Assembly: GCF_902168135.1 (NCBI RefSeq)
Contig: NZ_CABHOL010000009.1
Location: forward strand, 62,001-126,000
Source of the DNA: an uncultured Fluviicola sp.
Lineage (GTDB): Bacteria; Bacteroidota; Bacteroidia; Flavobacteriales_D; Crocinitomicaceae
Length of the DNA stretch: 64,000 nucleotides
Direction: 5' to 3'
How positions within the stretch are numbered: position 1 is the first letter of the stretch; each line of letters begins with the position of its first letter. The translations under genes and the position numbers were made by a program. The notes under the pieces are model-generated. The model saw only the letters and a program-made list of their open reading frames with translations, made no database searches and was not told the origin of the DNA. Positions 42,995 through 64,000 of this stretch are shown one piece after another.

Positions 42995-43030
42995 AGTGTA
43001 TACAGTTTGTTAGCGGACTAAATGCTCGGT

Positions 43031-43843: not shown

Positions 43844-43847
43844 AAGG

Positions 43848-43855
43848 CAAAAATA
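43848..43855 (-). promoter_or_regulatory. -7 box (TATTTTTG) of the T9SS cargo gene
   Basis: A perfect TAnnTTTG on the minus strand ending 4 nt before the ATG at 43843, predicting a leaderless mRNA. It lies between the end of the DUF4268 gene and the start. Confidence 0.55.
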
Positions 43856-43867
43856 CAAAGACTTTGG

Positions 43868-44332
43868 CTACATTGCCAGATTTATCAGAATATCCTTGAA
43901 TTCCTGGTAAAAGGCATCGAAATGTACTAAACGGTCTGACAGGAAATTTAGTATCTCGGGGTGGTCTTCGGGCTTGTAAAAATTCAGGTCGGAACGTTCC
44001 CAAATAATGCGGTTGAACACCGGAACGACAGCCGTACTGGCATTTTCAATCCAGACACCATCAGTTCCCATTTCACTTTCCAGTACGATTTTCAGTTCGT
44101 ACAATTGTTCCCACAGGATCTGACGCACTCCTTCATCTTTTGCCTGGATATCAAAGGTCAAACGTGCACCGTTCTCATCAGCATCCACACGGATATAGAT
44201 GTCTTTTACTTCGGAAGGATAAGCCAGCCAGTTCATCCTGCGCCCGTTCGATGAGCGGACTTTCTGCATGCGGACCTTGAATTGGTTCCAGAAATCGATT
44301 CTGAGCTGCTTTTTTTCTTCCTTCGTGTACAT
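43868..44332 (-). CDS. DUF4268 family protein
   Basis: 154 residues covering one DUF4268 domain: LRIDFWNQFKVRMQKVRSS, YIRVDADENGARLTFDIQAK, and the C-terminal FYKPEDHPEILNFLSDRL. DUF4268 is often the C-terminal part of nuclease-like or restriction-related proteins, with a PD-(D/E)XK-like partner; here it stands alone, about 20 nt upstream of the T9SS gene start. No catalytic motif is visible. The function is unknown. Confidence 0.8.
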   Translation of the reverse strand: MYTKEEKKQLRIDFWNQFKVRMQKVRSSNGRRMNWLAYPSEVKDIYIRVDADENGARLTFDIQAKDEGVRQILWEQLYELKIVLESEMGTDGVWIENASTAVVPVFNRIIWERSDLNFYKPEDHPEILNFLSDRLVHFDAFYQEFKDILINLAM

Positions 44333-44410
44333 GTATGGTAAACTTTGTTACGAAGGTAATTATCAATTATGAATTGACGAATTATCAAGGAAGTGTTGGA
44401 GCGAAAAAAT

Positions 44411-44601
44411 ACCGCAAAGAAACAAAGAGCGCAAAGTGAGTCTGTAAAAAACGCTGAGATTTCCTTTTTTTTGCGGTTCAATAAACAAGTGTGGTTGTGT
44501 AGAATAGGGGTAAAGATCAAAAAAATACCGCAAAGAGTGAATGCATGCAAAGGATATGGATCAAACTTTGCGCACTTCAACTCTTTGCGGTTCAAATAAA
44601 C
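44411..44601. repeat. Two tandem ACCGCAAAG...TTTGCGGTTCAA hairpin elements
   Basis: Element 1 (44411-44486) and element 2 (44526-44601) each begin ATACCGCAAAGA and end TTTGCGGTTCAAATAAAC or similar, so each folds back on itself. Both lie just downstream of the delta-60 T9SS gene on its 3' side. A third, altered copy lies upstream at 46454-46536. Confidence 0.7.
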
Positions 44602-44610
44602 GAGTTTTAC

Positions 44611-46536: not shown

Positions 46537-46719
46537 ATATATGGAATAATTGCAGAAAAGACGAAGTTTTGGTCCGAAAGGTTCGATGAAGGGGAAAAAT
46601 TGGCTGGAATTTTTCTATTTAACATAATTCGGGGTAATTACGAATTTCCAATTGCTAATTACGAATGAGTTATTGAAAACCGATTTCACAGTTGTATGTT
46701 CATGCAATGAAAAATAAGT

Positions 46720-47140
46720 ACTTCGTGAGAATTGAATATTCCGGGCAATTTCCCGGAGAAAAAATTCTACGCGATTCTCATGATAAACTTTTTTGAAGCT
46801 CATTTCTAAAAGAATCCCGGAATTTGAAATTTGGAGATTTTGAGAATTGAATATTTCCGGACGATTGTACTGGTGAGAAATTTTGTGCGATTCTCAGGAA
46901 GAACTTTTGCAGGTAATTTTGCGGTCAATATAAACAACCGGGTGCGAGCATTTGAAAATTTCCGGATGATTGTCCGGATGAAATTTTTTGTGCGATTCTA
47001 GTGAAGCAGATTTTACACCAGGAATGGAATTAGTTTAAGAGAACTATAAAATCAGAGAAATCCAGGATTGCAGGAATCGATTATTGTGAGCAGTGGTGCA
47101 GTAGCAAAATTCTACGCGATTCTCGAGAAGAGGAAATGGA
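46720..47140. repeat. Degenerate direct repeat, four copies with GCGATTCT
   Basis: GCGATTCT occurs at 46771, 46887, 46992 and 47116 (spacings 116, 105 and 124). Copies 1-3 are preceded by TTGAATATTCCGG-like or TTGAAAATTTCCGG words and a GAxAAAATTTT word, so the unit is longer than the core. The copies differ at many positions. Confidence 0.6.
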
Positions 47141-47323
47141 AGTGATGTTTGGATCAAAAGCCTGTAAGATGGTGAATCGTTTGTTTTAGATATTCTATTT
47201 AACATAATGTTAATTATAAGACGAATTGGATTTTTGATATATTTGCTTCGCAGTGCTGTGTTCTGTCGCCATATGTGGTGGTTAATTTAAAATGTGGAAT
47301 CCGGTTATTTTAAATTGTGGAAT

Positions 47324-49027
47324 TCATTGTTCTATTCGTTCAGTTATTTTTGGAAACATAGTTTTAAAGCTTCGAGGTAAATCACCAACTTTTTTATGTC
47401 GTAATTCTAATTCGCGCATAATAAAACGTGAAAATGATAGAAATTGATCATGTGGATTACGAGTCATATTAATGTATTCCAAATACCAATTAAAACAATC
47501 TTGAATGGGAACTTGTCGATCATGAATAATATCCTGAATTTCGATAAATGTATCTATATGAATAACGATCAAACCTTTGGACCGATGCTTTGCAGAACCC
47601 TCTAGTAAAGTTTGATATTCCGAATTCAATAAATAATTAATTCCGTAGGAGTTATATAATTCATCAGTAACGATTAGTATTGGGAATATTTGTATTTCCT
47701 TTTGGTTGAAATTATCAAAATCAATACCTTCATTCGCCAATTTATTCGAAAGGATTGCTAGTTGAGATATTCCCTTTTGTTTTCCTTTTTTATTCGACTT
47801 CAGCTTTGCGAAAATTTCATTTTTTATGGTTTCGTAGTCGCGAGATAATTTTGCTGACGCTTGAAAAATGGCATCTTTAAATTCAATAATGAATATCTTA
47901 GTACCACACCGCACATAAAAATCTGGCCCCTTCTCGCCTGCATTCTTTTCCCATTCTAGACCGTCCAGTGAAAAACATTTTTTTCGTTTACCGACCATAT
48001 ACTTGCCTAATCGATATAACAGATATTGTTCATAAAAGTGCTCTGAAAAATACCTGGACTTAAAATCGGGTATATCCTTTACCGCTCCTGATTCCATTAA
48101 TGTGCTTCCAAAATCAAAAACAATCGTCTGGAATAATTTATCAATAAGAAAAGAATAATTGTATGCAATATAGGTGTTGGCTTCTGATTTGTAAAGAGGT
48201 TTTTCTCTTAAAGAGATAAAATCCGGCTTCTGTTTAAATGAGGTAGGATCAATAATCGACAATGAACCAAAGAAAGCATTAATTGGATCGTCTGGTGGAG
48301 TAATAAGTTTTGCTGCATTTTGATCAATATCTCCAGGCTTGTATAAAGTTAAAAAGCAATTCAGTATCTGGTAAATATAGTCTTGCCAGCTTTTAGTGGA
48401 ATATTTTTGATTAAATGCAGGTAAAAATTCCTTTAACTCATCGTGTTGCTCTACATAAGTAAAAAACTCAACTGATTTATATATCTGCCAACGAAAGTCT
48501 CTGTATTTTTTTAGATCTTCAAACGGAAGGAAATGTGGAAGTAAAAATTCTAATAATTCTTGTGGGGTCTTAAATTTTTCAACCGGTTTTTTAATTAGAG
48601 AATCTTGGTCTACCCATTCTTGGGTTGCTAGTAAATATGCTTTAATAAATCGTTCTTCTTCCTCTATTGTTAAATTTCTGGCATTTCCTGGATTATAGAA
48701 TTCTAATGCCCTTTCGATTAAAACAACTGAACTTTGGTTAGAGACAAATGAGAATTGATTCTTTTCAAAAAGGGCTTTTGCCATTTGGTCAGCAAATCGC
48801 TTTTTTAATTGAGGTGATTGTCTTTGAAGAACAAACGCAATTAATTCACGTTGAGTATCTAAGTCTCTTTCATTTACAAAAATTCGTGCATTTAATCCTC
48901 CAATAATTTCAATGATTGTTGCTGTTGGAATTCCGTTAAATAGTGATTCCCATGTTGGTCTAGGCTGGTCATAAATTGCATCATATTCAATGCTAACGAT
49001 GGTGGAAAAACTTGTCTGAGTAGTCAT
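47324..49027 (-). CDS. Large protein with C-terminal PD-(D/E)XK-like nuclease motif
   Basis: 567 residues; the overall family is not recognised. The C-terminal third has the restriction-endonuclease-like core: EKGPDFYVRCGTKIFIIEFK gives Asp at about 369, Glu at about 382 and Lys at about 384 (PD-x(n)-ExK), preceded by a helix (FYEQYLLYRLGKYMV). The N-terminal 300 residues are helical and charged with no motif I can name. It is AT-rich, first in the accessory island, and stands alone, with the DUF3606 gene diverging 161 nt upstream. A nucleic-acid-cutting defence protein is the likely role, by motif only. Confidence 0.7.
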   Translation of the reverse strand: MTTQTSFSTIVSIEYDAIYDQPRPTWESLFNGIPTATIIEIIGGLNARIFVNERDLDTQRELIAFVLQRQSPQLKKRFADQMAKALFEKNQFSFVSNQSSVVLIERALEFYNPGNARNLTIEEEERFIKAYLLATQEWVDQDSLIKKPVEKFKTPQELLEFLLPHFLPFEDLKKYRDFRWQIYKSVEFFTYVEQHDELKEFLPAFNQKYSTKSWQDYIYQILNCFLTLYKPGDIDQNAAKLITPPDDPINAFFGSLSIIDPTSFKQKPDFISLREKPLYKSEANTYIAYNYSFLIDKLFQTIVFDFGSTLMESGAVKDIPDFKSRYFSEHFYEQYLLYRLGKYMVGKRKKCFSLDGLEWEKNAGEKGPDFYVRCGTKIFIIEFKDAIFQASAKLSRDYETIKNEIFAKLKSNKKGKQKGISQLAILSNKLANEGIDFDNFNQKEIQIFPILIVTDELYNSYGINYLLNSEYQTLLEGSAKHRSKGLIVIHIDTFIEIQDIIHDRQVPIQDCFNWYLEYINMTRNPHDQFLSFSRFIMRELELRHKKVGDLPRSFKTMFPKITERIEQ

Positions 49028-49371: not shown

Positions 49372-50409
49372 ATGCATGTTTTTTTAGATTCGTGTATACT
49401 TTTCAAAGATTATTTTCTAGAAAAATCATCTAAACGGCTGCTTGAATTTGCAGAAAAAGGATTGATAGATCTATATATGTCTGATATCGTAAAGCTGGAG
49501 TTAAGGAGGCAATTTGAAAAGGAACTTATTGAGCGAAATACGATTCTGAGCAAGTTAAATAAAAATGTTAGAAGACTGAGGCTTGGAGACCCCCTACTAT
49601 TAACTGACGTCGAAAAACAACTTCGAGTTTTTGATCAATATTATTTAGGTTTATCCCGTTTAAATCACTTCATTTTTTTACCAGTCAAAGATGAGTTTCT
49701 TCCTGATATAGTAGATCGTGCAATTAATAAGAAGAAGCCATTTACTGAGAATAAATCAGAGTTGAAAGATGCTTTAATTTGGAAAACTTATTCAAGCTAC
49801 GTCGAGAGTAAAAAACTAGACGAATGCATATTGCTGACTAACAACACTTCCGATTTTTGTGGTAAGGATAAGGATAAAGTTCATAACGACTTATTAGTTG
49901 ACACAGAACGATTTAAAGTTGTCAATTCTGCATTAGATTTCATAAAGATTTTTGGGCCAGAATTAGATAAACCAGAAAGAAAAATATTGGCATTTGTTGA
50001 GAATACAGAATTTGACAGTGAATTTATCTTAGAGAATATTGACAAGTTCTTTATAGACGAAATTCTATCTAAGATTGACTCTGCAGTAGAAAGATTGGAA
50101 CCATCTGATGTTTTTGATGAAATTTGGATGGGTGGATATGTTTCGGGGAATTATTCTGAAATTTTAGAATGTAAAAATATTGAAGTTGAAACAATAGGAT
50201 CTAAAGCCTCTGTTTACGCCAATTTATCGATATCTTATGATTCAGAAGTTTATGAATATAATGCTGCAAGAGATCCAGGAGAAGATCACTTTCATTATAT
50301 CGGTGAAGCAACTTTAATTTTTACTATGAATATTAGTTTTGATCTTGATTCAGAGGGAGAAGGAGATAATTTAGAAATAACTGATATTCACTTGGATGAA
50401 GTTTGTTAA
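49372..50409 (+). CDS. PIN-domain (DUF4935-like) protein
   Basis: 345 residues. The N-terminal 170 residues are a PIN domain: FLDSCILF (Asp6), KLELRR (Glu43), KDALIW (Asp133) and LLTNNTSDF (Asp161), the acidic set expected for an Mg-dependent RNase. The C-terminal half, from about residue 200, is acidic and beta-rich (SKASVYANLSISYD, GEATLIFTMNISFDLD), with no recognised domain. It is far larger than VapC (about 135 residues). It is read with the DUF3606 gene (3-nt gap). The transposon core starts only 10 nt after its stop, so its own terminator may have been displaced. Confidence 0.8.
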   Translation: MHVFLDSCILFKDYFLEKSSKRLLEFAEKGLIDLYMSDIVKLELRRQFEKELIERNTILSKLNKNVRRLRLGDPLLLTDVEKQLRVFDQYYLGLSRLNHFIFLPVKDEFLPDIVDRAINKKKPFTENKSELKDALIWKTYSSYVESKKLDECILLTNNTSDFCGKDKDKVHNDLLVDTERFKVVNSALDFIKIFGPELDKPERKILAFVENTEFDSEFILENIDKFFIDEILSKIDSAVERLEPSDVFDEIWMGGYVSGNYSEILECKNIEVETIGSKASVYANLSISYDSEVYEYNAARDPGEDHFHYIGEATLIFTMNISFDLDSEGEGDNLEITDIHLDEVC

Positions 50410-50418
50410 ACTTTTATT

Positions 50419-51042
50419 CTAATTAATTGTCGATATGAACATCTTGAAACTATTATAACTCAATTTCTCCTCCAACTGATTATTCACAATCTTCATAATA
50501 CTGGCAACCGGTAATCCCAGTTGCTGGTATTCCATGATCTGTTCCCGGAAAGGATCGAGTGCCCTCCCCTTTCGGTTCTGACTTCCTTTTGGCCGGCCGA
50601 GTTTCTTTCCCTGGGCTTTTGCTGCGATCAATCCTTGTTTGGTTCGAATGGAAATGAATTCACGTTCCGATTCGGCAAAGTAACTGTAAATAGCCAGGAG
50701 CAGTTTTACATGATGTGAGTTCTTATAGGTAGAAAGCTCTGGTTGTCGAATAAAGACGATCTCTACTCCCCTTTCCAGTAATGTATTGATGATGTTGAGG
50801 GTTTCGATCATATTTCGCCCTAGCCTACTTAATTCTGCTACCAGGAGAAGATCTCCGGATTCCAGTTTGGAAGTGAGCTCATCGATCTTGCGTTCTCGGA
50901 CCGATTTGGTACTGGAGATTTCGATTTCAATGAATTCTGTAATGACGATCTGGATCCGTTGCGCATGTTCCAGAAGTAAGTGTCGTTGTTTGTTTAGGTC
51001 CTGCTTATCGGTACTTACCCGAATGTATCCTATAGTTTTCAT
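50419..51042 (-). CDS. Serine recombinase (resolvase/invertase family)
   Basis: 207 residues. The catalytic domain has GYIRVSTDKQDLNKQ with the nucleophile Ser about residue 10, ELSRLGRNMIETLNIINTL and ERGVEIVFI; the helix-turn-helix end region (GRPKGSQNRKGRALDP, then LPVASIMKIVNNQ) binds DNA. Typically it resolves cointegrates of replicative transposons. It lies downstream of the transposase and ATPase in the same orientation and belongs to the same mobile element. Confidence 0.9.
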   Translation of the reverse strand: MKTIGYIRVSTDKQDLNKQRHLLLEHAQRIQIVITEFIEIEISSTKSVRERKIDELTSKLESGDLLLVAELSRLGRNMIETLNIINTLLERGVEIVFIRQPELSTYKNSHHVKLLLAIYSYFAESEREFISIRTKQGLIAAKAQGKKLGRPKGSQNRKGRALDPFREQIMEYQQLGLPVASIMKIVNNQLEEKLSYNSFKMFISTIN

Positions 51043-51147: not shown

Positions 51148-51819
51148 TTATTTGTTCACTTTTTTTCGTTTCTGTTGGTGATATGCTTCAATGTAATCCA
51201 TGATCTCCGAGAAGTTTTTACAACTGTTAATCATTTCCTGAATGGCTTCTTCAGAGGTGACATTGTAATATTCACCAAAACCGCGGATTTCTTCTTTTGT
51301 TGGCTCGCTTAAGAATTCCCAATGATTAATTCGTCTGTAAAATTCAGGTATACCAGGAATTCCGCGAGTCTTCCATTTTTTCATGTACTCATGGAAGTAT
51401 TCCGGACCTGCAATGATAATTCCTGTTGTATCCTTTGTGTTATCCCTCAGTTCATGTAGGTATTCAAAGAATTTTGGTTTAGACTTTCCAGCTTCATCAA
51501 AGATGAGTAACTTCTTTGTGCCACCATAATTCAGTTTGTGAGAAGCTTGGTTGATCAAAGAATGTAATGTAGAGCCCATGACACGTCCTTCAATTCCCAA
51601 AGTATTTAAAAGACTTGAGTAAAATTCTTTCATCGTCATACTTGTTTTAATAACCATGTAATACACATCTTCATTATTTTCTAGGTATTCTTCAAAAGCT
51701 GTTGTTTTCCCTGCTCCGGTATATCCAATTATTGCTATCATTTTGGTATTGGAACGAGTATAGTCGCACAGGTTTTGAATAGTGTTGTAATTACTGGTAG
51801 CTAATATTTTTTTATTCAT
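51148..51819 (-). CDS. Transposition AAA+ ATPase (MuB/TnsC-like)
   Basis: 223 residues. Walker A MIAIIGYTGAGKTTAFEEYL and Walker B KKLLIFDEAGKS; the C-terminal region is helical (EIRGFGEYYNVTSEEAIQEM). It matches the small ATPases that accompany Mu/Tn7/Tn552-type transposases and select target DNA. It overlaps the transposase stop by 8 nt, so it is coupled to it. Confidence 0.88.
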   Translation of the reverse strand: MNKKILATSNYNTIQNLCDYTRSNTKMIAIIGYTGAGKTTAFEEYLENNEDVYYMVIKTSMTMKEFYSSLLNTLGIEGRVMGSTLHSLINQASHKLNYGGTKKLLIFDEAGKSKPKFFEYLHELRDNTKDTTGIIIAGPEYFHEYMKKWKTRGIPGIPEFYRRINHWEFLSEPTKEEIRGFGEYYNVTSEEAIQEMINSCKNFSEIMDYIEAYHQQKRKKVNK

Positions 51820-53686
51820 CTGTTCCTTTGTTTTTAATTAGAAATTTGTCCATCGATGCTGGAACTTTGTACAATTGATTTTTAGAAGGAATCCGTTTGG
51901 GACGAATCCGGTCCTTTTTTGGTTTAGGTTCAATTGAATCCGCTTTTGATTTTTCGGGAGATTTGGTCGTTGCACGTGAGGCTGATTCTAATTTATGAGA
52001 TCTCGATAGTTCAAGAAGGAACTTTTCATTTTTATCAAATAATTTAATTCGACTTCGATCTTCCTTTTGATAGCAGACCAGAGCAGTTGTTCCGTTTAAG
52101 CGGTATCTCCAATCCATTTCATGGATGATATATTGAAATTGGTTGTTTCTTGAACTTCCTTCAGATAATAATATCATGGAGTTTCTGATACGGTATTCCT
52201 GAACACGATCCCAGAACATCAAAGCAAATTGACTTTCAGATATTTTCACAATACTCCGATCCATTTTTGCTAACAAAAAGCAGATATCAGGAGATTCTCT
52301 CTTAGTATTCGTCTTCTTCGCATTGTACTCCTTTATTAGTTCATCAACCAATAATTCAAGTTCTTTCTTGGGTCGCAGGTTATTTGAGTTCAATGCTTGT
52401 CTGATCATTTCTTTTGCAGGTCTCCCCTCTTCCCGTTTGCTTTTAATTCCTTCCCCGATGTATCCATCTTTTCCTTTGCATATAACAGTTTGAAAAGTGG
52501 AGAAAAATCGTTCTACATGAGCTTTCTCTCTGGGGGAGTCTGGGCTACACCTGCGAAAATTTGTTCCATAAATAGAGATGTATTCTTCCAGTCGTTTGAA
52601 TCGTTCGTGTTTGAAGCATGAACTGTTATCTGTCACCATTTCAAAAGGCAGATATCCAGTGTTTTTTACTGCCATTTTGATCGCACTAATTACGAGCGTA
52701 TGATTCTCAGTTTTTCCGGTGGAATACCCAACAATCTTACGGGAATGAACATCCATTATAACAAATAATTGCAGAAAAGCCGGACGGTTATCATTTTCTA
52801 AATACGGAATTTGAAGCCTGCTGCCATCAAGTTGCCAGGATTCACCATTGTACTTAGGTTCCTCCCTCAATTTGAAAGGATTGAAATAATACCTCTCCCA
52901 GTCTTTCCCGTTTCGTCTTGTTTTACACTGATTTTGTATGTATGGATCAGACAAAATTCTCTTAACTGTACCAACAGAAACCTCCGAATATCCATTCAAT
53001 ACAGCCCAATTATTTACGCGTTCGTGTATTGTTGAATAGGATAACTGCTTTGGATCTGAATAATATTTTTTGATTTCTTTAAGATGAGCATCAGTTAGTT
53101 TACGGGAATTTTTTGTTTTCCCCAGGCTGCGGTGTACAAAGGCCTCGGATCCATATTGCTGAAATTTTTTAAGCTTTGCATAGAATGATTTCAAAGAATC
53201 AGTTTCGAAAATTAATCCATCAATTTTACGATAAGCTCTGAAAATTTTATTAATGGGGATTTCAAAACAGTGCATCTGTTTTATTTGATGAAAAACAGCA
53301 TGGGTTATTGCGTAAGATCGAATGAGTTCAGGATCAAAAAACAGTTCATTGTAATGCTTTAAAAATGCCTGATAGCCTCTTTCACAAGCTGAATGTAGCT
53401 GCATTGAGATGAAATCTTCAATTTTACTCTGCTCGTATTGTTTCAGGTTTTTATTAAGGTGATCCTCATGAGGGAGTTCATGTTTCGTCTTGAGCTGGGG
53501 GCTAATAGATTCGTATAGAATCCATTTAATGCGTTTATCGTTCGGATCAGTTAAATGTTCGAAATATCGAGTTTTATTTTTCCGATTACGGTTCATACCA
53601 TTCATAACGCTTTGTTCATTTACACCATACTTTTTAAGGAAGGACAATTGGACATAGATCTGCCCGTCCAATGAAATTATATCCAT
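51812..53686 (-). CDS. DDE transposase (Mu/Tn552-type, rve catalytic core)
   Basis: 624 residues. An N-terminal DNA-binding region precedes an rve core: Asp at about 287 (ESWQLDGSR), Asp at about 353 (EMVTDNSSCF), and Glu at about 392 (KAHVERFF); DD39E spacing. Around the core, FVIMDVHSRKIVGYS is typical. A Mu-C-like beta-barrel follows, and the tail is very basic and rich in Lys, Ser and Pro (KSKADSIEPKPKKDRIRPKRI), perhaps binding the ATPase. All catalytic residues are present, so it could be active. Confidence 0.9.
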   Translation of the reverse strand: MDIISLDGQIYVQLSFLKKYGVNEQSVMNGMNRNRKNKTRYFEHLTDPNDKRIKWILYESISPQLKTKHELPHEDHLNKNLKQYEQSKIEDFISMQLHSACERGYQAFLKHYNELFFDPELIRSYAITHAVFHQIKQMHCFEIPINKIFRAYRKIDGLIFETDSLKSFYAKLKKFQQYGSEAFVHRSLGKTKNSRKLTDAHLKEIKKYYSDPKQLSYSTIHERVNNWAVLNGYSEVSVGTVKRILSDPYIQNQCKTRRNGKDWERYYFNPFKLREEPKYNGESWQLDGSRLQIPYLENDNRPAFLQLFVIMDVHSRKIVGYSTGKTENHTLVISAIKMAVKNTGYLPFEMVTDNSSCFKHERFKRLEEYISIYGTNFRRCSPDSPREKAHVERFFSTFQTVICKGKDGYIGEGIKSKREEGRPAKEMIRQALNSNNLRPKKELELLVDELIKEYNAKKTNTKRESPDICFLLAKMDRSIVKISESQFALMFWDRVQEYRIRNSMILLSEGSSRNNQFQYIIHEMDWRYRLNGTTALVCYQKEDRSRIKLFDKNEKFLLELSRSHKLESASRATTKSPEKSKADSIEPKPKKDRIRPKRIPSKNQLYKVPASMDKFLIKNKGTDE

Positions 53687-54871: not shown

Positions 54872-54955
54872 GAAACAAATCACGGGTACACGAAGGATAA
54901 AAGTTACCCTATTATAATAGGTCTTTTTATTATATTTGTCTAAATTTTGAAGATC

Positions 54956-55246
54956 ATGTACAAGGCCAGATATTCAGATTCCGAGAAACAGGAAATATTG
55001 AAAGAGCGCAATACTACTGGGATTAGCGTGAGAGAAATTTGCGAGAAATATGGAATTACGGTCCAAACTTTTTACGCATGGAGAACCAGGCTGTCTATTC
55101 CTTTGCCAGCATTCTCGTCTGAACCTGGAATGAAATCAAAATCCGATTTACCAAATCCGATTGAAGAAGAAAACAAAACTCTGAGACGGCTTTACATCAA
55201 CCTTTCGGAACACAATTATCAATTAGCTAAATTTCTGGAGAAATGA
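54956..55246 (+). CDS. IS3 OrfA-like helix-turn-helix protein, no OrfB
   Basis: 96 residues from the ATG at 54956. It has the OrfA helix-turn-helix (YSDSEKQEILKERNTTGISV, REICEKYGITVQTFYAWR) and the C-terminal leucine-zipper-type region (EENKTLRRLYINLSEHNYQL). An intact IS3 element would continue with OrfB (DDE) by frameshift, but here the stop is followed by a lipoprotein gene whose ATG overlaps (ATGA). So it is either the remnant of an insertion sequence or a small regulator adapted from one. Confidence 0.75.
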   Translation: MYKARYSDSEKQEILKERNTTGISVREICEKYGITVQTFYAWRTRLSIPLPAFSSEPGMKSKSDLPNPIEEENKTLRRLYINLSEHNYQLAKFLEK

Positions 55247-55704
55247 GATCAATAACCAAATTTTTAACCCTATTCCCTATCGTATTAATTTTGCTTTGCT
55301 CTACAAGCTGCAAAGAAAAGCGTTTGCTTAAAATGGCTGACGGAACCTTTGAAAAGCCTTACCCGTCCCCTTGCATTTATTCAGATAGCTCTACCCAAAT
55401 TTTCTATGAGACAACAAAACTATGGATTGATAGTAAAGAGGAAGTATTGTCCTGGAGAGGCGGAACTACTGGAGGAACCGTTGATATCAAGCTTGCTAAA
55501 TCCGACCGCGGAAAAAAAGATGAACTTCGTTTAAGTATAACTGCAGATAGTGCTTTCAACGATATGCTTCCTCCTGGAGCAATACCAAATCACGAATTAT
55601 TGAGAAACTCCAGGATCTATCTGAATCCAAGTAAAAGAGCAATGACGATGAGTATCGTTATTGATGGTCAGGAGACGATGTATTATTTCAGAATTATTAA
55701 ATAA
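55243..55704 (+). CDS. Lipoprotein of unknown function
   Basis: 153 residues with a lipobox (IVLILLCSTSCKEK, Cys near residue 23). The mature part is beta-rich, with short strands (EVLSWRGGTTGGTVDIKLA, ELRLSITADSAFND) and no named domain. It overlaps the OrfA-like stop by 4 nt, so translation is coupled to it. It is probably at the outer membrane. Its link to mobile or defence genes is unknown. Confidence 0.65.
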   Translation: MRSITKFLTLFPIVLILLCSTSCKEKRLLKMADGTFEKPYPSPCIYSDSSTQIFYETTKLWIDSKEEVLSWRGGTTGGTVDIKLAKSDRGKKDELRLSITADSAFNDMLPPGAIPNHELLRNSRIYLNPSKRAMTMSIVIDGQETMYYFRIIK

Positions 55705-55720
55705 AAGATTTATTTTATAC

Positions 55721-56986
55721 TTAATTAGAAGAAGTTTCCAGTATCCTTTTTATTGATGATAGGCTCATTATTTCAACTGTTGTATCTATATCTTCAACCA
55801 GTTTCATTAAAGTTTCCTCATTAGTAATATTAAGGAGAAGTATTGATCTGACTTCTTTATCGACAGGATGTTTTTCTAAAAGAATTTTAGTGTCTTTGTC
55901 TAACTTACTTGCACTTCTTTTAATTTTAGTGGCCAATTTTCTGTTTTCAGTGTTAAGTTTAAACATTTTGGTTTCGATAATGAATATTACGCTGTTAATC
56001 TCAAACACACAATCGATCTCTAAACCTTTCAATTCATTGAAAATTAAATTCGATCTGAAAGATAATTTACGATGCCCTAGTAGATACTCCAGAGCATCGA
56101 GCAAAAGTCCATCATTTGCTTTAATTATGCTAAACAATTCTTGATGAATGTCAAATGAAGCAAAATAAGTGACCTCTTTTTGACAAATTGGACATGTTAA
56201 TTGCTTTAGTTTTTTTGGTTTCAATTTGACATGAAGGGATCCCTTATACATTCCAGGGTCACAATGATGACATTCAACAAAAACATCTTCGGAACCGTAG
56301 GAAATAAGTTCTGCTTCAAATAGTAATTCGAAAAGATTTATTCTACTTTCGAAATTATCTTCTGCATTTAAGCTATTTACAAGGACCTGATTGGAAGCAT
56401 ACATGCCTTTATATAACTCACCCAAATACAATTCTTTGATGTTCCGGAGAAATGTCAAAACATCGTAAATGGTTCCATCAGATAACGCATCTTCTATTTT
56501 CTTCCTTACAAAATCAGTTTTGTAATAAATTTCTAATTCCTCGAAGGTTTTGATATGTTTTCCAGCAAAACCATAATGATGAAGTTCATCTAGGATTACT
56601 TCTTCAAAATTACCTTTCTTAGTGATAAGTGCCGGCACAATTCGACCAATAAGTTCCTGTGGCTCCTTGAAGTCCTCTTTAATTTTTTCAAATGGTTTCC
56701 CGAAATGTTTATCTATAAAATCAAACACTAATGGTTTATATCGATCTATTTGATTTTGGAGAAAGTCTTCATTTCGATTGGTCCTTTTAGTATTACGTAT
56801 ATCAATCTGATATCTTTCGTTCTCGACGAAATTTGAAATAATGATTCTAGGGAATGGAATTTCAATTTTTCGATTAATCAAAGTGAATGACTGCGTATCT
56901 AGAAGCTCCTCTTTAGATAATAAAAAAAGGTTATAGCATGATCTCTGTTGCCAGAATAATTTGTAAAAATAATCTCTATTTGTCAT
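55721..56986 (-). CDS. Zinc-ribbon and PD-(D/E)XK-like protein
   Basis: 421 residues, no named family. Two C-x-x-C pairs (about 239/242 VECHHCDPG and 265/268 TCPICQK) form a zinc ribbon. It is followed by a nuclease-like core: NELKGLEIDCVFEI (Asp about 325) and VIFIIETKMF (Glu 338, Lys 340), the PD-(D/E)XK layout. The N-terminal 230 residues are helical. It is the last gene of the minus-strand set, 12 nt after the helicase stop, so the two are cotranscribed. Likely a nuclease effector of the same system. Confidence 0.7.
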   Translation of the reverse strand: MTNRDYFYKLFWQQRSCYNLFLLSKEELLDTQSFTLINRKIEIPFPRIIISNFVENERYQIDIRNTKRTNRNEDFLQNQIDRYKPLVFDFIDKHFGKPFEKIKEDFKEPQELIGRIVPALITKKGNFEEVILDELHHYGFAGKHIKTFEELEIYYKTDFVRKKIEDALSDGTIYDVLTFLRNIKELYLGELYKGMYASNQVLVNSLNAEDNFESRINLFELLFEAELISYGSEDVFVECHHCDPGMYKGSLHVKLKPKKLKQLTCPICQKEVTYFASFDIHQELFSIIKANDGLLLDALEYLLGHRKLSFRSNLIFNELKGLEIDCVFEINSVIFIIETKMFKLNTENRKLATKIKRSASKLDKDTKILLEKHPVDKEVRSILLLNITNEETLMKLVEDIDTTVEIMSLSSIKRILETSSN

Positions 56987-56998
56987 TACAATAAATAT

Positions 56999-59900
56999 TT
57001 AATAGCTTGATATGACTTTTAAATCGATATTAGCAAGTTCCTTTATAAAATTCTCAGTAACCCCAAGAAGTGTGAGTATTTCTGTTGACGCTGTTCTTTT
57101 TGAAAACCCTGGTTGAACAACAATTATTTCAAAGGCCATTGGAATTTCCTTCTTTGCGATTGTGAGCCATTTTTCCAGATCTTGTTTACTACCTTTCTCT
57201 ATTCTTGAGCACGAAACACCGTTCTTGACTTTTTGTTCCCTACGAAGTAAATGGTTGATAAACTCATCTCCCGATTTATGTTTCCAATGTATCGATTTTT
57301 GCGCTTGACCACAAACCTCATATAGATTTGTAATCTGATTAGTTACTTTACCTTTAGATGCAAATTTTAAATGGAATAGTTTTACTTCTATACGATCACT
57401 GAAGAGTTTCATAGCAACTACGTCAGCAATCTCACCAGAATAATCATCATCATAAATGATATCAAAATCCTGTTTCTTTAATTCCTCAATCACTTTGAAT
57501 TGAATTGAGTTTGTAATTTTGGGAGTTACTCCTTGAGATTCTTTACTTAAATCTGTTCCGCTCCAATCCCAAGCAATTATTTCTTCTCTAGGATAGACGT
57601 TAATTTGTTGACTTAGTGTTATATATTCATTTCCACAAAGCGCGGATCCATCAGCAAACCATATCATGGGAGTTTTATTTTCAAAGAATTTGATAGCTGG
57701 TTCCTTTGTGTTTCCGTAAAGGGCCTCCACATTATTTCTACTTCGCAAGATTATTCTGTAGTCTGGAAAAATATTTTCAGGATCCGTTGTGTTTTCGAAT
57801 AGCTCAATCTCGAAAGTTGCTTTTTTGGATTCGGATGAAATCGAGAACATTAGTGGTCCTCCAATTTGGGGATTTTCAAGTTGAATTTCTATTTTGGATA
57901 AATCAAAAAAGGCACCATCTATTTCAAACTGATATCGAGTTTCAGAATACATATACATTTCTTCATCCCAATCTATCCAAACAGGCATGTTTTGTGGAAC
58001 TGCAGTAACTAATGAAGGAATCAAGGTCTCTTTCAATATTTGATTGGGATCAATATCGGGATCGGCTAGTTTATTCCCTAAATTAATGCACCATTTTTTA
58101 AAAGACATTAAATCTCCGACAAGTTTATTCCAAATCCTTCCTTTGTAAGAAGCTCCAAGGTTTACTTGATTACCATTCTCATACCCAACCCCCATAACAA
58201 AAGCTTTCTCACCTTTTTTCTCATCAACAACACTTATTGCCTGTGCTACATCACTTCCGACATGCATACGAAACCTGACATTCTTACCAAGAAAATATCT
58301 CAAACCAACATTTTGTAGTCTTGTTCTCTTGACATTGTGAAACGTCTTAAACACGTTGATCCCTTTAATTAACTCAGCACTTTCGTCAATAATTGCTTTT
58401 GCAAGTTCCCCATACAAGCTACCATTATCGGAACTATTAATAAAAAGTAAATTGTTTTTAGTTTCCCAAAAAACAACAATCATTTCCCAATTAAGTATAG
58501 TAATGTCTTTATGATTAATCCATTCAACGTCATTTCTTCTAGCAGTTATAATGACAAGAATTTTTTCTGTATCATTAACGTCGGAGAAAACATATTCCAA
58601 GTTAGAATATCCAGGTATTCCTTTGGGAAAATTTGACGGAAACCAGCCTTTAGTCTTGTTTTTGTAAACAACAGTACTGAACTTTGGTTTAATGTTCTGG
58701 AAGGGGAGTTTAGTATCGCTTAATTTTGAAAAACCATCAATCAATTCTTTATAATCCACTTCATCACCAATTCTTCCCAGACTTGCTTCGGATAATAACT
58801 CATTCCAATCGGCATCTCTTGCATATAATTCTGATAGTTCTGATCTTACATTAAGATCAGCAATATTTGCTATGAATGATGCATTTCCTAGAGCTTCATC
58901 GTGCTTAGTTCTGGTAAATCTCCCGGCAAATTGTAAAGTAATTGGAAGACTCTTTCTAATATCGTGAAAAGCAGCAACTTTCAATTCGGGTAAATCAAAA
59001 CCTTCACCGAGCATATCAACGCACACAATAATTTTGGCTTCTTTGTTAAGTATCTTTTTGTACGTTTCCTGAAATCCTGGTACTCCGGAATAAATTAAAA
59101 CAGGATTTAGATCCAATTGATCTTTATAATATTCAAACACTTTAATTGCACGATTCTTTGTTTCACAGCGGGCCATTAAAATATGATTGTAGGTTTTTAA
59201 ATCTTCCCTTAGACGATTGATGGCAGTTTCTGCAATTAGTTTATCTGCCTTTTCAAAGTCGTATTCTCGCAAGGATATGAAATCAATTTTGGTGAAGTAT
59301 CCTTGTTCTTGTGCCTTCTTGAGAGGGAAATTAAATATGATTTTTCCATCAAGTCTTTTTCCGTCGTTACGAAAAGGTGTTGCCGTGAATTGAACTACTT
59401 TTTCGGGTGGAAAAATGTTTTTAAATTTATCCCAGGTTTTAGCTTTTATATGATGTGCTTCATCGATGAATACATTAGAGAACAGTTTAGAGATTTCTAT
59501 TTTCTGATCATCATCACAACGAGATAATATTCCCATTGTTGTTATTACTACGTTGCATTTAGATACAAAGTCGCTTAAATCTTTAACTGAGCTAAATCCC
59601 TGACCGATTGTTCCAACAATAGGGTAAAGTGCATCATCATCGACGATATCAAATTCTTTTAGTAACCCAAGAGTAGAAAACTTACCAGATAATTGTGTTC
59701 TTAATGAATCCGATGGTACAATAATTAAAAGCTTTTGGCATTGTTGAGCCACTAAAGCAGATAACATAGTCTCTGTTTTTCCTGTACCAGTGGGAAGTAC
59801 AACCGTTGCAGTGTTCAAAGGAAGTTTTAAATGCCCTAGTAGCATATATAATGCACCTATTTGTGGCTGTCGTAGCCCCTTATCTCCAGATTGAACATTT

Positions 59901-60271
59901 TCTTCTTTAAATTTAAAAGCAGATTTCCATGAAGAAGTAATTTTCGCTGGATTCTGTACCATATTTAATCCTGGATGCTTAATCCAATTCTTAATTTCAA
60001 TACTTCCATCATTAATATTTGAGGTGGTTGGATCAGAGCCAGTCAATAAAGCGTACTTGATATTTTTTGGGATATTAGTTGAATCAGCAGTTAAATAGAT
60101 ATTTGATTTCCCAGCGCTAATAGTCACTGACTTTGAATCGCTATCAACTATGGTAAAAGCTAACTTGATTTTTGGCGAGATCAGATTAGTGATAGAGTTT
60201 TTACCGTTTTTAAAAATCTGTTTTTCTAACGGCGGTAAAATGACATGGATAGGTGAAGTAATAGTAGACAT
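56999..60271 (-). CDS. DEAD/DEAH-box helicase with C-terminal nuclease-like domain
   Basis: 1090 residues. Superfamily 2 motifs in order: Walker A LPTGTGKTETML (about 160), DEAH in VFIDEAHH (about 270), TATPFRND (about 297), then the second RecA domain with GEGFDLP (about 423) and QFAGRFTRTKHD (about 447, with the arginine finger). A large uncharacterised middle (500-920) follows. Near the C-terminus a PD-(D/E)XK-type arrangement appears: GEIADVV (Asp about 950), RIEVKLFHLKF (Glu about 962, Lys about 964/969). So a helicase fused to a nuclease, as in type III-like restriction and other defence enzymes. Probable substrate: foreign DNA or RNA. Confidence 0.82.
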   Translation of the reverse strand: MSTITSPIHVILPPLEKQIFKNGKNSITNLISPKIKLAFTIVDSDSKSVTISAGKSNIYLTADSTNIPKNIKYALLTGSDPTTSNINDGSIEIKNWIKHPGLNMVQNPAKITSSWKSAFKFKEENVQSGDKGLRQPQIGALYMLLGHLKLPLNTATVVLPTGTGKTETMLSALVAQQCQKLLIIVPSDSLRTQLSGKFSTLGLLKEFDIVDDDALYPIVGTIGQGFSSVKDLSDFVSKCNVVITTMGILSRCDDDQKIEISKLFSNVFIDEAHHIKAKTWDKFKNIFPPEKVVQFTATPFRNDGKRLDGKIIFNFPLKKAQEQGYFTKIDFISLREYDFEKADKLIAETAINRLREDLKTYNHILMARCETKNRAIKVFEYYKDQLDLNPVLIYSGVPGFQETYKKILNKEAKIIVCVDMLGEGFDLPELKVAAFHDIRKSLPITLQFAGRFTRTKHDEALGNASFIANIADLNVRSELSELYARDADWNELLSEASLGRIGDEVDYKELIDGFSKLSDTKLPFQNIKPKFSTVVYKNKTKGWFPSNFPKGIPGYSNLEYVFSDVNDTEKILVIITARRNDVEWINHKDITILNWEMIVVFWETKNNLLFINSSDNGSLYGELAKAIIDESAELIKGINVFKTFHNVKRTRLQNVGLRYFLGKNVRFRMHVGSDVAQAISVVDEKKGEKAFVMGVGYENGNQVNLGASYKGRIWNKLVGDLMSFKKWCINLGNKLADPDIDPNQILKETLIPSLVTAVPQNMPVWIDWDEEMYMYSETRYQFEIDGAFFDLSKIEIQLENPQIGGPLMFSISSESKKATFEIELFENTTDPENIFPDYRIILRSRNNVEALYGNTKEPAIKFFENKTPMIWFADGSALCGNEYITLSQQINVYPREEIIAWDWSGTDLSKESQGVTPKITNSIQFKVIEELKKQDFDIIYDDDYSGEIADVVAMKLFSDRIEVKLFHLKFASKGKVTNQITNLYEVCGQAQKSIHWKHKSGDEFINHLLRREQKVKNGVSCSRIEKGSKQDLEKWLTIAKKEIPMAFEIIVVQPGFSKRTASTEILTLLGVTENFIKELANIDLKVISSY

Positions 60272-60361
60272 AAATAATGGTTATAATTTTTCAACTAAAT
60301 TAATATTTTTTGGAATCTAGCGCTATAAACAATTCTCTTATTAAGAGATAACAAACTTTGA

Positions 60362-60442
60362 TTAATTAACCTCAGTTATCTGAATATCAGGACCAAATTT
60401 TGCTAAGATTGATTCATTTGTTACACTTTCTGGAAAAGCCAT
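60362..60442 (-). CDS. Possible short open frame downstream of the STAND gene
   Basis: A 26-residue frame (MAFPESVTNESILAKFGPDI then QITEVN) whose reading frame stays open upstream to 60523, overlapping the STAND gene end in the -1 frame and reading NKHIGIPTESHRIIYSCIH. Its composition is protein-like, but no ATG/GTG/TTG lies in the upstream part. It could be a small gene, a programmed frameshift extension of the STAND protein, or the effect of an indel. Confidence 0.35.
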   Translation of the reverse strand: MAFPESVTNESILAKFGPDIQITEVN

Positions 60443-60513
60443 GGATAGTATATGTATACAGCTATATATAATTCTGTGTGATTCTGTTGGGATGCCTATA
60501 TGTTTATTTTGAA

Positions 60514-63500
60514 CTAATATAAATCAACCTTAGCGAGAACCTCAAAGGCTCCAGCTCTAAGATCTAGGTTTTGTAATATTAAATCAAAAGCGTCCATAGC
60601 ATCTTCAGTAGCTTTATCATCTTTGTTATACTCCCTTAGACAATTATATGCCTGAATAATCACCTGAAGTGGTTCGTTTCTGTGCATCTGATGATTTTTC
60701 ATCTTGTCAATATGATTGACAAAGTGAGCTGCAAGTTGAATACACTTTTCAGGTTTGTCATTTACACATTTCAATAGATATCGGTAGAAGGAGTCTTCTC
60801 TATATTTTCCGACATTCGATTCCACATATAGACTAAGGAATTCATAAAGCTGATCGAACAATTCATTCTGAAGATTAAAAAATGGAAAGATGTAGGCCTT
60901 GGCAATTTTATCGTCGTCGGAATCGAGGAATTTTGAAACAATTTTCAAAGCACGATTCACCCGTTCGTTCACTTTAATGAATTCCCAAGCGATTGCAATA
61001 GATGCTTCTTTTTGATCATTTCCTTGAGACCAAAACTCCTCTAGTAACTCCTCGGATCCGGAGTAATCAAAGCAATAGGCCTTGGTCAAAAGATGACCTA
61101 CTGTTTTGCTAGAGTCTTTGACATATATGCTTCTTTTCAGGAACGGGATTAACTCTTTGAAATGAGTATTGATTAAGTATGTTAATACGTGAACAGAAAG
61201 TTTCACAAGACCTGGATCGTAATCATGCAGGAGTAGAAGAAAGATTTCAAGAACTTCTTCAGTATTATATTTGAGATAATTCGCCAGTTTATAAAGTGCA
61301 CAGGCCCGGGTAGATGGGCTAGAATTATTTGCGATCGTTCTTAATACGCCGAAAACTTCTTCTCTACTCTTATCAGAAAAATGATAATCCATCAAGGAAC
61401 TAACTGCTGCACCACGGGTGGAATTAATGCCCATATTTAGTACATCATTAGTAAAGGCATCTCTTTCTGAGCCATTTATGGAGATGTTTTTAATAAATTC
61501 AAATACTTCCTTATCATTAATACCGGCTTCAGTAAAATAATTAGTTATCCAAAGTAAGTAACGGCTGTATTCATTATTGAATTCAGTATGTTGAATCGCA
61601 GTTTTGAATCGTATTAATAAATGGTCAGGAGGTAATCCTCCATTTTTTAAGCCCTCAAGCCCCTTTACCTTATAAGATTGGGGAATGGTTGAATCAATCA
61701 ATATATCATCGATTAAAGGCAGAAAATACTCTATTCTTTGTGAAACTCTATTTTCAAATTCACGGCTATGAGAAAGTTCACCAGGATCGTTCCATGAATC
61801 ATAATTCGGATTATCGATATTGTATTCTCTAAAAGTTCTTTTCCAATCTTCGAAGGTCATTTTATCAAATGCATCTTGGGGTAACATTTTTTCACCTGAA
61901 TGAAGAGAAATGCCTTTGGGCTCTTCCAAATTTCCTCTGTCTCCAAACTTACGTTTAAGTTCTTGAAAGCTTCGTTTGAGTTCAGGATAACGATTTCTTT
62001 CTGAATTTGGAATGGCTCTGATGAAATCATACTGAGTATTGCCGTATGATTTTCGAATTTTCTTTCCATCGCCAAAATCAATTACCATTAACTCAGAGTC
62101 AGGATACAGTTTAACGAGCATCGAATTCACAATCTTTTGCTGCTCGGGGCTGTAATGAGGATAAGCGTTACCTAAACTTGCTTGCAGAAGATAATTCATA
62201 TAAAGGCTTAGTCCGATTATTTTCTTTATCTCTACGTCCGTAGAGAAGAATTGAAAACTCTCCTGTAGAAATATTAATGGGTGCTTTTCAACTACACTAA
62301 ATGCAATAATTAAGTGAGTGATAGATTCAGATTTTAAATATTCTAGTACTTCTCGTCTAACAAAATCGTGATCAGTATTTGCCTTTTCAATAAGATAGTC
62401 TTGTAACATGCTTAACTGTTCTGAATGAAAGTATAGCTGTTCTTCCTTTTTTGTGTACAAAAGAAAGGTTCTGTCTACTTTTATAGCGCCGCGTTTTTTA
62501 TTGGAGGAACTATATCCTCTTTTATCAATGATTTCATTGATTATCCGCTTCACTAAGAGATAGGTTATATCTGGATGATTTTCCCAAAGTTCTTTATAAA
62601 TCTCTGAATGATTTTGTCCAGGAAAATAATCATCTTGCCCGTATTGATCTTTACTGTCTGGACCAATGGAAACCAAACGTAATAGGATATCACATACTCT
62701 TTCAGGGTAGTTCTTTATTCCATGTTCCAGAAAATGAAATAATGCATACCCAAGTGTTGGCTCTCCGATTTTATCCAAGATGTATTCTACCAGATCCATA
62801 TATCGAGAATCATTATACTCCCTTACTCCCCAAAGGAGATCCTGAATTATTGGATCAATGGATATAGATGATTTAGTTTCAATTATGAAATTGATCAACT
62901 GTTCACTCTTTCGATGCGTAAATCGTCTTAAAAAAGAGCGAATTAAATCCAGACTTTCAAGGTCATTGCTATTAACTTCTTGCTGAATCCATTTTTTGTC
63001 TATAAAAATGTCAAGCCATCCATCACCATGGTACAATGAAATGAATATGTCTTTTGATTTTTTATCGTCCTTAAATATTTTTTCAATGAACTGTTGTTCC
63101 TGAACGAGCGGAGTATCTTGTAATGCAACATGCCGTAGCACAAGAAGTTTGATATGAAAACGGATTTGACTATCAGCTAAAATTGCTTGTAAATCCTTTA
63201 TATATCTTTGGACATCTACACCTCGCTTATAGTTAAGAATTTGTTGAATTTTCGAGCGTAGAAACAAACCTTGGTGCCGGTTTTTTATAGTTGTAAGTAA
63301 ATCTTCTTTTGATGTCACAGAATTGCGTGCTACGCAGTAATCGAAAAATGTTTGATGAAAGAATTCAAGGTGATTCTCTCTGCGGAATACGACGCCCTCC
63401 GTACTTAAATATTCTAACTCCTTCGGAAATAAATCGGTAAAAGAATCATCAGGAATATTAATTGATTGATCCTCGTACATCTTTAATGCAATACTAAAGA

Positions 63501-64000
63501 CAAGTTTTACGACTTGTGCAAAGTCAATATTCTTACTTTTCTCCGATCTATTACTAGTGATTCGAAGATTCCATAATTCTCTATAAAGATCCTGAATGCT
63601 TTTTATAGTGGAAATTTCAAGATCATCAGAATATACTTTGAGAAAGACATCTAGGTGTAAAGGTGTTTTAAGTAATTCGATGAGTTCTCGGTTTAGTTTA
63701 CCGGGATTGATCTTATTAATTGAAAGAATTTGTTTTAGTTCATCAATGTCAAGGGGCTTAATAGCAAAGTTGATCTTATTAGAATAAGTATTGATTATTG
63801 GATCGTAATTTAAGTCGTATGTTCGACATGAAACTACAATTCTTACTTTTGATTGATTGGCATAGCGCTTAATAACTCTGTCATACATTCCCAATGGTCT
63901 CATGTTAGACGATAGAGTTTGAGAAAGTGCATCGATTTGATCAATGATCAAGACCACCTGTGGTTCGTAGGATATGAACTGATCCATAAATGTAAAGAAA
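60514..64000 (-). CDS. STAND-type P-loop NTPase with repeat region (partial)
   Basis: At least 1161 residues visible; the frame runs off the window end, so Walker A and any N-terminal effector domain are not seen. Visible: Walker B VVLIIDQIDALS at the start, the sensor IVVSCRTYDLN, the STAND/NACHT helical region (LKTPLHLDVFLKVYSD), and HLEFFHQTFFDYCVARN, a common STAND winged-helix end. The remaining about 850 residues are helical repeats, probably HEAT- or TPR-like, a sensor arm. Avs-type proteins share this plan and detect phage proteins. Homology is by layout; a 241-nt gap precedes the helicase. Confidence 0.78.
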   Translation of the reverse strand, partial: FFTFMDQFISYEPQVVLIIDQIDALSQTLSSNMRPLGMYDRVIKRYANQSKVRIVVSCRTYDLNYDPIINTYSNKINFAIKPLDIDELKQILSINKINPGKLNRELIELLKTPLHLDVFLKVYSDDLEISTIKSIQDLYRELWNLRITSNRSEKSKNIDFAQVVKLVFSIALKMYEDQSINIPDDSFTDLFPKELEYLSTEGVVFRRENHLEFFHQTFFDYCVARNSVTSKEDLLTTIKNRHQGLFLRSKIQQILNYKRGVDVQRYIKDLQAILADSQIRFHIKLLVLRHVALQDTPLVQEQQFIEKIFKDDKKSKDIFISLYHGDGWLDIFIDKKWIQQEVNSNDLESLDLIRSFLRRFTHRKSEQLINFIIETKSSISIDPIIQDLLWGVREYNDSRYMDLVEYILDKIGEPTLGYALFHFLEHGIKNYPERVCDILLRLVSIGPDSKDQYGQDDYFPGQNHSEIYKELWENHPDITYLLVKRIINEIIDKRGYSSSNKKRGAIKVDRTFLLYTKKEEQLYFHSEQLSMLQDYLIEKANTDHDFVRREVLEYLKSESITHLIIAFSVVEKHPLIFLQESFQFFSTDVEIKKIIGLSLYMNYLLQASLGNAYPHYSPEQQKIVNSMLVKLYPDSELMVIDFGDGKKIRKSYGNTQYDFIRAIPNSERNRYPELKRSFQELKRKFGDRGNLEEPKGISLHSGEKMLPQDAFDKMTFEDWKRTFREYNIDNPNYDSWNDPGELSHSREFENRVSQRIEYFLPLIDDILIDSTIPQSYKVKGLEGLKNGGLPPDHLLIRFKTAIQHTEFNNEYSRYLLWITNYFTEAGINDKEVFEFIKNISINGSERDAFTNDVLNMGINSTRGAAVSSLMDYHFSDKSREEVFGVLRTIANNSSPSTRACALYKLANYLKYNTEEVLEIFLLLLHDYDPGLVKLSVHVLTYLINTHFKELIPFLKRSIYVKDSSKTVGHLLTKAYCFDYSGSEELLEEFWSQGNDQKEASIAIAWEFIKVNERVNRALKIVSKFLDSDDDKIAKAYIFPFFNLQNELFDQLYEFLSLYVESNVGKYREDSFYRYLLKCVNDKPEKCIQLAAHFVNHIDKMKNHQMHRNEPLQVIIQAYNCLREYNKDDKATEDAMDAFDLILQNLDLRAGAFEVLAKVDLY

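Follow-up and report, generated by a model that had tools for sequence, protein, structure and literature searches.

A probable Tn7/Tn552-like replicative transposon carrying several putative defence modules in an uncultured Fluviicola sp.

Genes of the locus and samples searched

The window analysed here is a stretch of 64,000 nucleotides (nt) from an uncultured Fluviicola sp. (positions 62001-126000 of contig NZ_CABHOL010000009.1), at whose right-hand end lie three large minus-strand genes encoding a STAND NTPase, a superfamily 2 (SF2) helicase of 1090 amino acids (aa), and a 421-aa zinc-ribbon protein. An earlier note on this DNA had read the three genes as a defence operon with the STAND protein as its sensor; our analysis suggests instead that they are most probably cargo of a Tn7/Tn552-like replicative transposon of about 20.85 kb, on which several defence modules would act separately. 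The contig could be read beyond the window's end, and genes past 64000 were completed from it; coordinates marked ext carry the window numbering on beyond 64000, and those marked L002 number the same locus separately. The features of the element are as follows.

47271..47300, plus strand: left terminal inverted repeat, identical at 28 of 30 positions, inverted, to ext 68097-68126
47324..49027, minus strand: open reading frame (ORF) of a 567-aa cargo protein with a PD-(D/E)XK-like motif (GPD...EFK) seen by eye
49372..50409, plus strand: 345-aa cargo protein with a PIN_12 domain (Pfam PIN_12, 4.4e-22)
50419..51042, minus strand: serine resolvase (Pfam Resolvase, 7.4e-34)
51148..51819, minus strand: AAA ATPase, TniB/TnsC-like (AAA_22, 2.6e-16; TniB, 7.9e-5, 22.6 bits against a cut-off of 22.4)
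51812..53686, minus strand: rve (DDE) transposase, TniA/TnsB-like (Pfam rve, 8.2e-13)
55721..56986, minus strand: orphan 421-aa protein with zinc ribbon and PD-(D/E)XK-like motif (ORF and motifs)
56999..60271, minus strand: 1090-aa SF2 helicase with RadD-type core and C-terminal PD-(D/E)XK-type domain (Pfam, conservation, and structure model)
60272..60513, minus strand: 242-nt gap between the STAND and helicase genes, AT-rich (GC 0.27), with a 26-codon ORF inside
60514..64000, minus strand: STAND NTPase gene, 1496 aa; whole gene, from the contig, ext 60514-65004 (L002:5515-10005)
ext 65001-65684 (L002:10002-10685), minus strand: 227-aa gene, overlapped for 4 nt by the start of the STAND gene
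ext 65824-67413 (L002:10825-12414), minus strand: DRT2-type reverse transcriptase (RT), 529 aa (PADLOC Drt2)
about L002:12424-12730, minus strand: structured RNA directly upstream of the RT
ext 68097-68126: right terminal repeat, beyond the window on the same contig

The three genes described in the earlier note are real in the arrangement it gave, with the 421-aa and helicase genes 12 nt apart on the minus strand and the STAND gene running on for about 1 kb past the end of the window. Their frames are not due to chance, as 100 first-order Markov sequences fitted to the 12.5-kb stretch contained no ORF longer than 148 aa. They are AT-rich, as the note had observed (GC 0.31-0.35), with a GC content at third codon positions (GC3) of 0.27-0.30 against 0.49-0.55 in three chromosomal genes on the left (40350-46272). 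The small ORF in the gap before the helicase is perhaps a gene remnant. Promoter and terminator scans showed no excess over shuffled sequences (61 against a mean of 57, and 7 against 7.3), and the limits of any operon are therefore undecided by them; Rfam gave no match.

Relatives were sought in genomes of the phylum and order, plasmids, genome contigs, and viral contigs, with the two sets of 395 genomes used in the helicase and STAND surveys taken as one sample. The helicase neighbourhoods comprised 80 genome-contig loci, six genome loci, and five plasmid loci (91 in all, with 633 neighbour ORFs, up to four per side), which are not independent, some of the alphaproteobacterial loci resembling near-copies. 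Helicase matches occurred in 71 plasmid records, of which six neighbourhoods were examined and five counted, a broken Marivirga copy being excluded; two neighbourhoods of the six core-only genome matches were also examined and enter none of the counts. For STAND matches on plasmids (12 records), one neighbourhood was examined.

Transposon ends and cargo

The element was delimited by its terminal repeats. The core 23-mer of the end repeat (three or fewer mismatches) is present at just one site on each strand of the 4.38-Mb genome, with no occurrence of the reversed control, and these two sites are the element's ends in opposite orientation. The start was set at 47274 (TGT) and the end at about ext 68123. 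By eye, a repeated TGTGGAAT-type motif is present in both ends, and CATA (4 bp) lies outside each of them. Together with the transposase, its AAA partner, and the resolvase, these repeats bear out the earlier note's placing of the genes in an accessory island with mobile genes. No TniQ or TnsA was found in the Pfam scan of the element's proteins, a scan outside which two small ORFs at 54947-55704 fall. GC3 is 0.24-0.32 in the eight larger cargo genes, 0.34 in the transposase and AAA genes, 0.48 in the resolvase, and 0.35 and 0.41 in the two small ORFs. Two genes past the right end have a GC3 of 0.28-0.29, and composition therefore does not mark that end. The 567-aa cargo protein had no match in Pfam (0.1), PADLOC (1), or NCBIfam (0.1).

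The RT lies near the right end of the transposon, 139 nt upstream of the 227-aa gene; it matches PADLOC Drt2 at 5.5e-132 and scores 315.8 bits in NCBIfam against a cut-off of 390. The 307-nt stretch before it is closed by a 10-bp stem and is predicted to fold at −105 kcal/mol; when this frame was shifted by 8 nt, the value was −97.5, where shuffled copies averaged −73.4 (z −4.7) and none of 100 was as stable. The RNA had no match in Rfam. It contains stop-free frames of about 60 codons, which prove nothing because 184 candidate units passed the same loose test.

The helicase family and its neighbourhoods

Pfam places ResIII (6e-20), DEAD (1.5e-10), and Helicase_C (5.5e-5) on the helicase, and no model in PADLOC 2.0.0, NCBIfam, or Pfam covers its whole length. 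Its core is closest to RadD and XPB by both sequence and fold, the top folds being RadD, then RIG-I/MDA5, XPB, and others; the core dominates these lists, and the remaining parts may have other folds. The nuclease-like C-terminal domain that the earlier note had seen is upheld by residue conservation and by the structure model: E947, D950, H967, K969, and Q989 are invariant in 56 sequences, and the model has a helix at 923-932, strands at 938-941, 951-956, and 961-968, and a helix at 981-998. The motif is of HxK type, with histidine in place of the usual acid before the lysine. No fold match was obtained for this C-terminal part, the fold lists being filled by the helicase core.

Thirteen of the 395 phylum genomes, the source genome included, held a match to the helicase at 1e-10; in the other 12, six matched across most of its length and six in the core only. 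The genome-contig scan returned at least 426 relatives at E ≤ 1e-3, some perhaps core-only, the best 80 of which all match through to the C-terminal end and are placed by their record titles in Bacteroidota, Firmicutes, Proteobacteria, Planctomycetota, Acidobacteria, and others. Among the 80 matches listed for the helicase profile in viral contigs, all were to the core only.

A phmmer search of the neighbour ORFs at all 91 loci found no relative of the 421-aa or STAND protein. The six near-full-length genome loci have dissimilar neighbours, again with no such relative, and the eight helicase relatives at 56-63% identity likewise have mostly unlike neighbours, save that L016 and L053 both carry an RT of the UG5-nitrilase type. 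At one locus (L056), a DRT2-like RT is encoded two genes further down from the helicase. Same-strand neighbours within 30 nt lie downstream of 13 of 85 helicase relatives and upstream of 15 of 83, and the same spacing is found in 235 of 681 other adjacent pairs at the same loci; tight downstream coupling is thus rarer for the helicase than for the control pairs. PADLOC was run on eight of the 13 tight downstream partners and returned five clear defence matches: the UG5-nitrilase RT of L016 and L053 (6 nt downstream), a PtuA-like ATPase (L059, 9 nt), an OLD/PARIS-like ATPase (L119, 15 nt), and a dCTPase (L054, 23 nt). Apart from the L016/L053 pair, these partners do not cluster with one another. 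Upstream, ten of the 15 tight cases, all at alphaproteobacterial loci (L105, L111, L117, L118, L120, L121, L124, L126, L128, and L038), involve a UvrD/AddA-like gene that either lies 13-14 nt away or overlaps by 4 nt. Two of these loci also contain matches to ZacA or ZacC.

The wider setting was sampled with ten random neighbours from different loci, drawn from the 93 nearest neighbours that reach 200 aa across the 80 genome-contig loci. At a PADLOC threshold of 1e-15, half of them matched (an RT, an RT-associated nitrilase, a methyltransferase, ZacA, and ZacC; two of the five come from one clade), against none of ten genes from the 33 ORFs in the first 46 kb of the window, which, as one chromosome stretch, make this a rough test.

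The STAND, 227-aa, and 421-aa proteins

Completing the STAND gene past 64000, as the earlier note had proposed, gave a protein of 1496 aa. Its Pfam matches all fall below the cut-offs (Mrr_cat 0.0076, AAA_22 3.5e-5, nSTAND_NTPase5, and HEAT_2 0.036); PADLOC gives PDC-M54A (8.6e-15) across the NTPase and LmuA (1.7e-8) at residues 15-148. The order of these weak Pfam matches, the LmuA match, and alignment with relatives indicate an Mrr-like nuclease, a STAND NTPase, and a HEAT-like arm. A 1523-aa AAA ATPase in the Protein Data Bank (PDB 9n00) matches at 7.3e-17; a literature search found no paper on this entry.

STAND relatives occur in nine other genomes of the 395, none of which is a genome with a helicase relative, and their neighbourhoods (9-18 kb, some ended by the contig) hold no helicase relative. 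Helicase and STAND relatives are thus scattered without a shared neighbourhood in the samples searched. The STAND relative of a Segatella plasmid (L142:6863-12017) is without the N-terminal nuclease, and the gene that it overlaps matches TIR_2 weakly (2.2e-4, below the cut-off), a possible precedent for an effector split between two genes.

The 227-aa protein had no solved structure at E ≤ 5 and no plasmid or viral relative, and the single relative found among 394 other genomes does not adjoin a STAND gene. Its blastp match to one STAND relative has an E-value of 0.02. An assignment as a DUF4297/Cap4-type nuclease was tried with hhalign against the N-termini of the STAND relatives and, with probabilities of only 14.5% and 2.2%, was left as a lead.

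The 421-aa protein carries CxxC motifs at 239 and 265 and D325...E338-x-K340. No Pfam family (0.1) or PADLOC family (1) matched it, and its single NCBIfam match (0.09), across the CxxC pair, is at chance level. Of the fold comparisons that had been proposed, that of the helicase core led to RadD and that of this protein failed, its single-sequence model having a predicted local distance difference test score of 37.8, too low for a fold search; the PD-(D/E)XK assignment is by motif. No relative was found in 394 other genomes of the phylum, 198 other genomes of the order, or plasmids, nor in genome contigs or viral contigs, where both scans reach close relatives only, and it shows no similarity to the 567-aa cargo protein. 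Because it sits 12 nt behind the helicase, shared transcription is likely; we read it as a putative nuclease and an orphan that probably shares a transcript with the helicase and is apparently not its required partner.

Comparison with known systems

The genes are of defence type and, as the earlier note had judged from visible motifs, fit none of Gabija, Hachiman, Zorya, Druantia, and BREX, for which PADLOC 2.0.0 presumably contains models: none of the three proteins matched a family of these systems at E ≤ 1. The part of the literature searched for this helicase or for a STAND-helicase-zinc-ribbon operon, PMC10853773 and PMC12839542 included, held no such operon that we recognised.

Tn7-like elements duplicate 5 bp of their target, whereas the putative duplication here is of 4 bp. 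The rve transposase, AAA partner, resolvase, and end repeats are shared with Tn7-like and Tn5053/Tn552-like elements. A survey of Tn7-like elements reports that 26% carry known defence systems, a cargo in which defensive RTs, PIN toxins, and enzymes of restriction type occur, and describes resolvase-bearing branches without TnsA (PMC8649781); the resolvase without TnsA agrees with these replicative branches, while TniQ is lacking among the scanned proteins and this combination of cargo is absent from Table 1 of that survey.

Like AVAST (Avs) and other STAND defence proteins, the STAND protein combines an N-terminal nuclease-like region, a STAND NTPase, and a long repeat-like arm in about 1500 aa, but no Avs model matched it at E ≤ 1 (PDC-M54A, from the PADLOC candidate PDC-M54, and LmuA alone did), and the overlapping 227-aa gene is extra. 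Compared with RadD and SauUSI-type SF2 helicases, the helicase adds an N-terminal beta region, a long middle part, and the C-terminal PD-(D/E)XK-type domain. Fusions of such domains to SF2 helicases are described as auxiliary effectors near BREX and restriction factors in defence loci (PMC12839542); the fusion is of the same kind, and that account is general and may include the present family. Hna (PMC13381803) shares the plan of a single helicase-nuclease protein, with a DinG/XPD-like SF2 helicase and a C-terminal PD-(D/E)XK nuclease in 845 aa, where the present protein has 1090 aa and a RadD-type core. A phmmer search of the PDB with the helicase listed no Hna chain at 0.01, the inclusion of 9YKJ or 10UJ being unchecked. 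With DRT2 (PMC11100668), the RT shares the Drt2 match and a structured RNA directly upstream; it differs in its length of 529 aa and its score below the NCBIfam cut-off, and a neo template is not established.

Interpretation

Gene anatomy, the transposon ends, the conserved helicase and nuclease-type residues, and the absence of a conserved neighbourhood in the samples searched are observed, whereas all activities and the anti-phage role are inferred. The STAND protein would be an Avs-like sensor-effector, its HEAT-like arm sensing a component of the intruder, upon which the NTPase would assemble; DNA would then be cut by the Mrr-type nuclease at its N-terminus, possibly together with the product of the overlapping 227-aa gene. 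The helicase may be self-contained, with a RadD-type SF2 motor that loads on DNA and a fused PD-(D/E)XK-type domain that cuts, and the DRT2-type RT with its own RNA would form a separate module. As far as gene content and neighbourhoods can tell, nothing in the comparative data appears to require joint action of the STAND, helicase, and 421-aa proteins.

The earlier proposal, in which the STAND protein senses and the helicase and 421-aa protein act, draws on shared strand and order and on similar base composition, and a Segatella plasmid offers it a parallel, a RadD-type helicase that matches in the core only and lies 5.5 kb away from a relative of the STAND protein; against these stand the 242-nt gap before the helicase, the overlap of the STAND gene with a different gene, and the lack of co-occurrence or adjacency among relatives, and we hold it to be very improbable. 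Its central claim was not supported by the neighbourhood comparison as far as this went: in the samples searched, relatives of two of the genes proved scattered and those of the third were not found. A system of just two genes, in which the helicase opens or feeds DNA to the zinc-ribbon nuclease as a lineage-specific, swappable effector, accords with the 12-nt spacing on one strand and with the 13 of 85 relatives that have a close downstream gene, five of the eight scanned being defence matches. We nevertheless think it unlikely, given that such coupling is rarer than in control pairs, that the partners elsewhere do not cluster together bar L016 and L053, and that the helicase already has a nuclease-type domain of its own.

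That the helicase alone is a RadD-like DNA-repair enzyme, its defence-gene setting merely reflecting mobile islands, is compatible with a transposon of separate modules and is suggested by the kinship of its core with RadD and XPB; its patchy distribution (seven of 395 genomes across most of the length, its own included), matched RadD chains of 555-586 aa that are too short for the C-terminal domain, and the defence matches of half the random neighbours make this rather doubtful. The helicase is, on its domains and setting, a candidate for single-gene defence. We would propose only tentatively that helicases with a RadD core and an HxK-type PD-(D/E)XK domain are an unnamed single-protein anti-phage family of many phyla, joined in some lineages by a swappable effector, here the orphan zinc-ribbon nuclease, and we lowered our estimate somewhat because the fusions described near BREX (PMC12839542) may include this family.

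Several observations weigh against a transposon with independently acting cargo. The 4-bp duplication is weak, since 6.7% of random site pairs also show a 4-bp match when 13 offsets are scanned; no empty insertion site was found in 13 congeners; and low GC3 is not limited to the element, extending to the two genes beyond the right end and failing in the resolvase inside. The close spacing of the helicase and 421-aa genes and the shared strand of the 421-aa, helicase, STAND, 227-aa, and RT genes make a single transcript possible, and relatives of the 421-aa protein may be too divergent for detection. In the alphaproteobacterial clade, the fixed UvrD/AddA-like upstream partner (10 of 91 loci) indicates that the helicase family is not always solitary. 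The pairing of 227-aa and STAND genes was not seen elsewhere, and the Segatella helicase near a STAND relative (743 aa, matching in the core only) also counts here.

If the independent-module reading holds, a plausible three-gene system can dissolve on neighbourhood comparison, and what is delimited in its place is an entire transposon whose defence cargo includes a DRT2-type RT, a putative STAND sensor, and a helicase-nuclease. Widespread, set among defence genes, and covered by no whole-length model, the helicase family is possibly an overlooked defence family.

Sequences flanking the element

A sequence at 47195-47225, which we take to resemble a Xer/dif site and which has counterparts at 46615 and ext 68407, is found some 48 bp beyond the transposon's left end in a flank that matches in 11 of 13 congeners. 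A 13-nt part of it is repeated on either side of the element, and a cluster of imperfect direct repeats occupies 46568-47208, just outside the left end.
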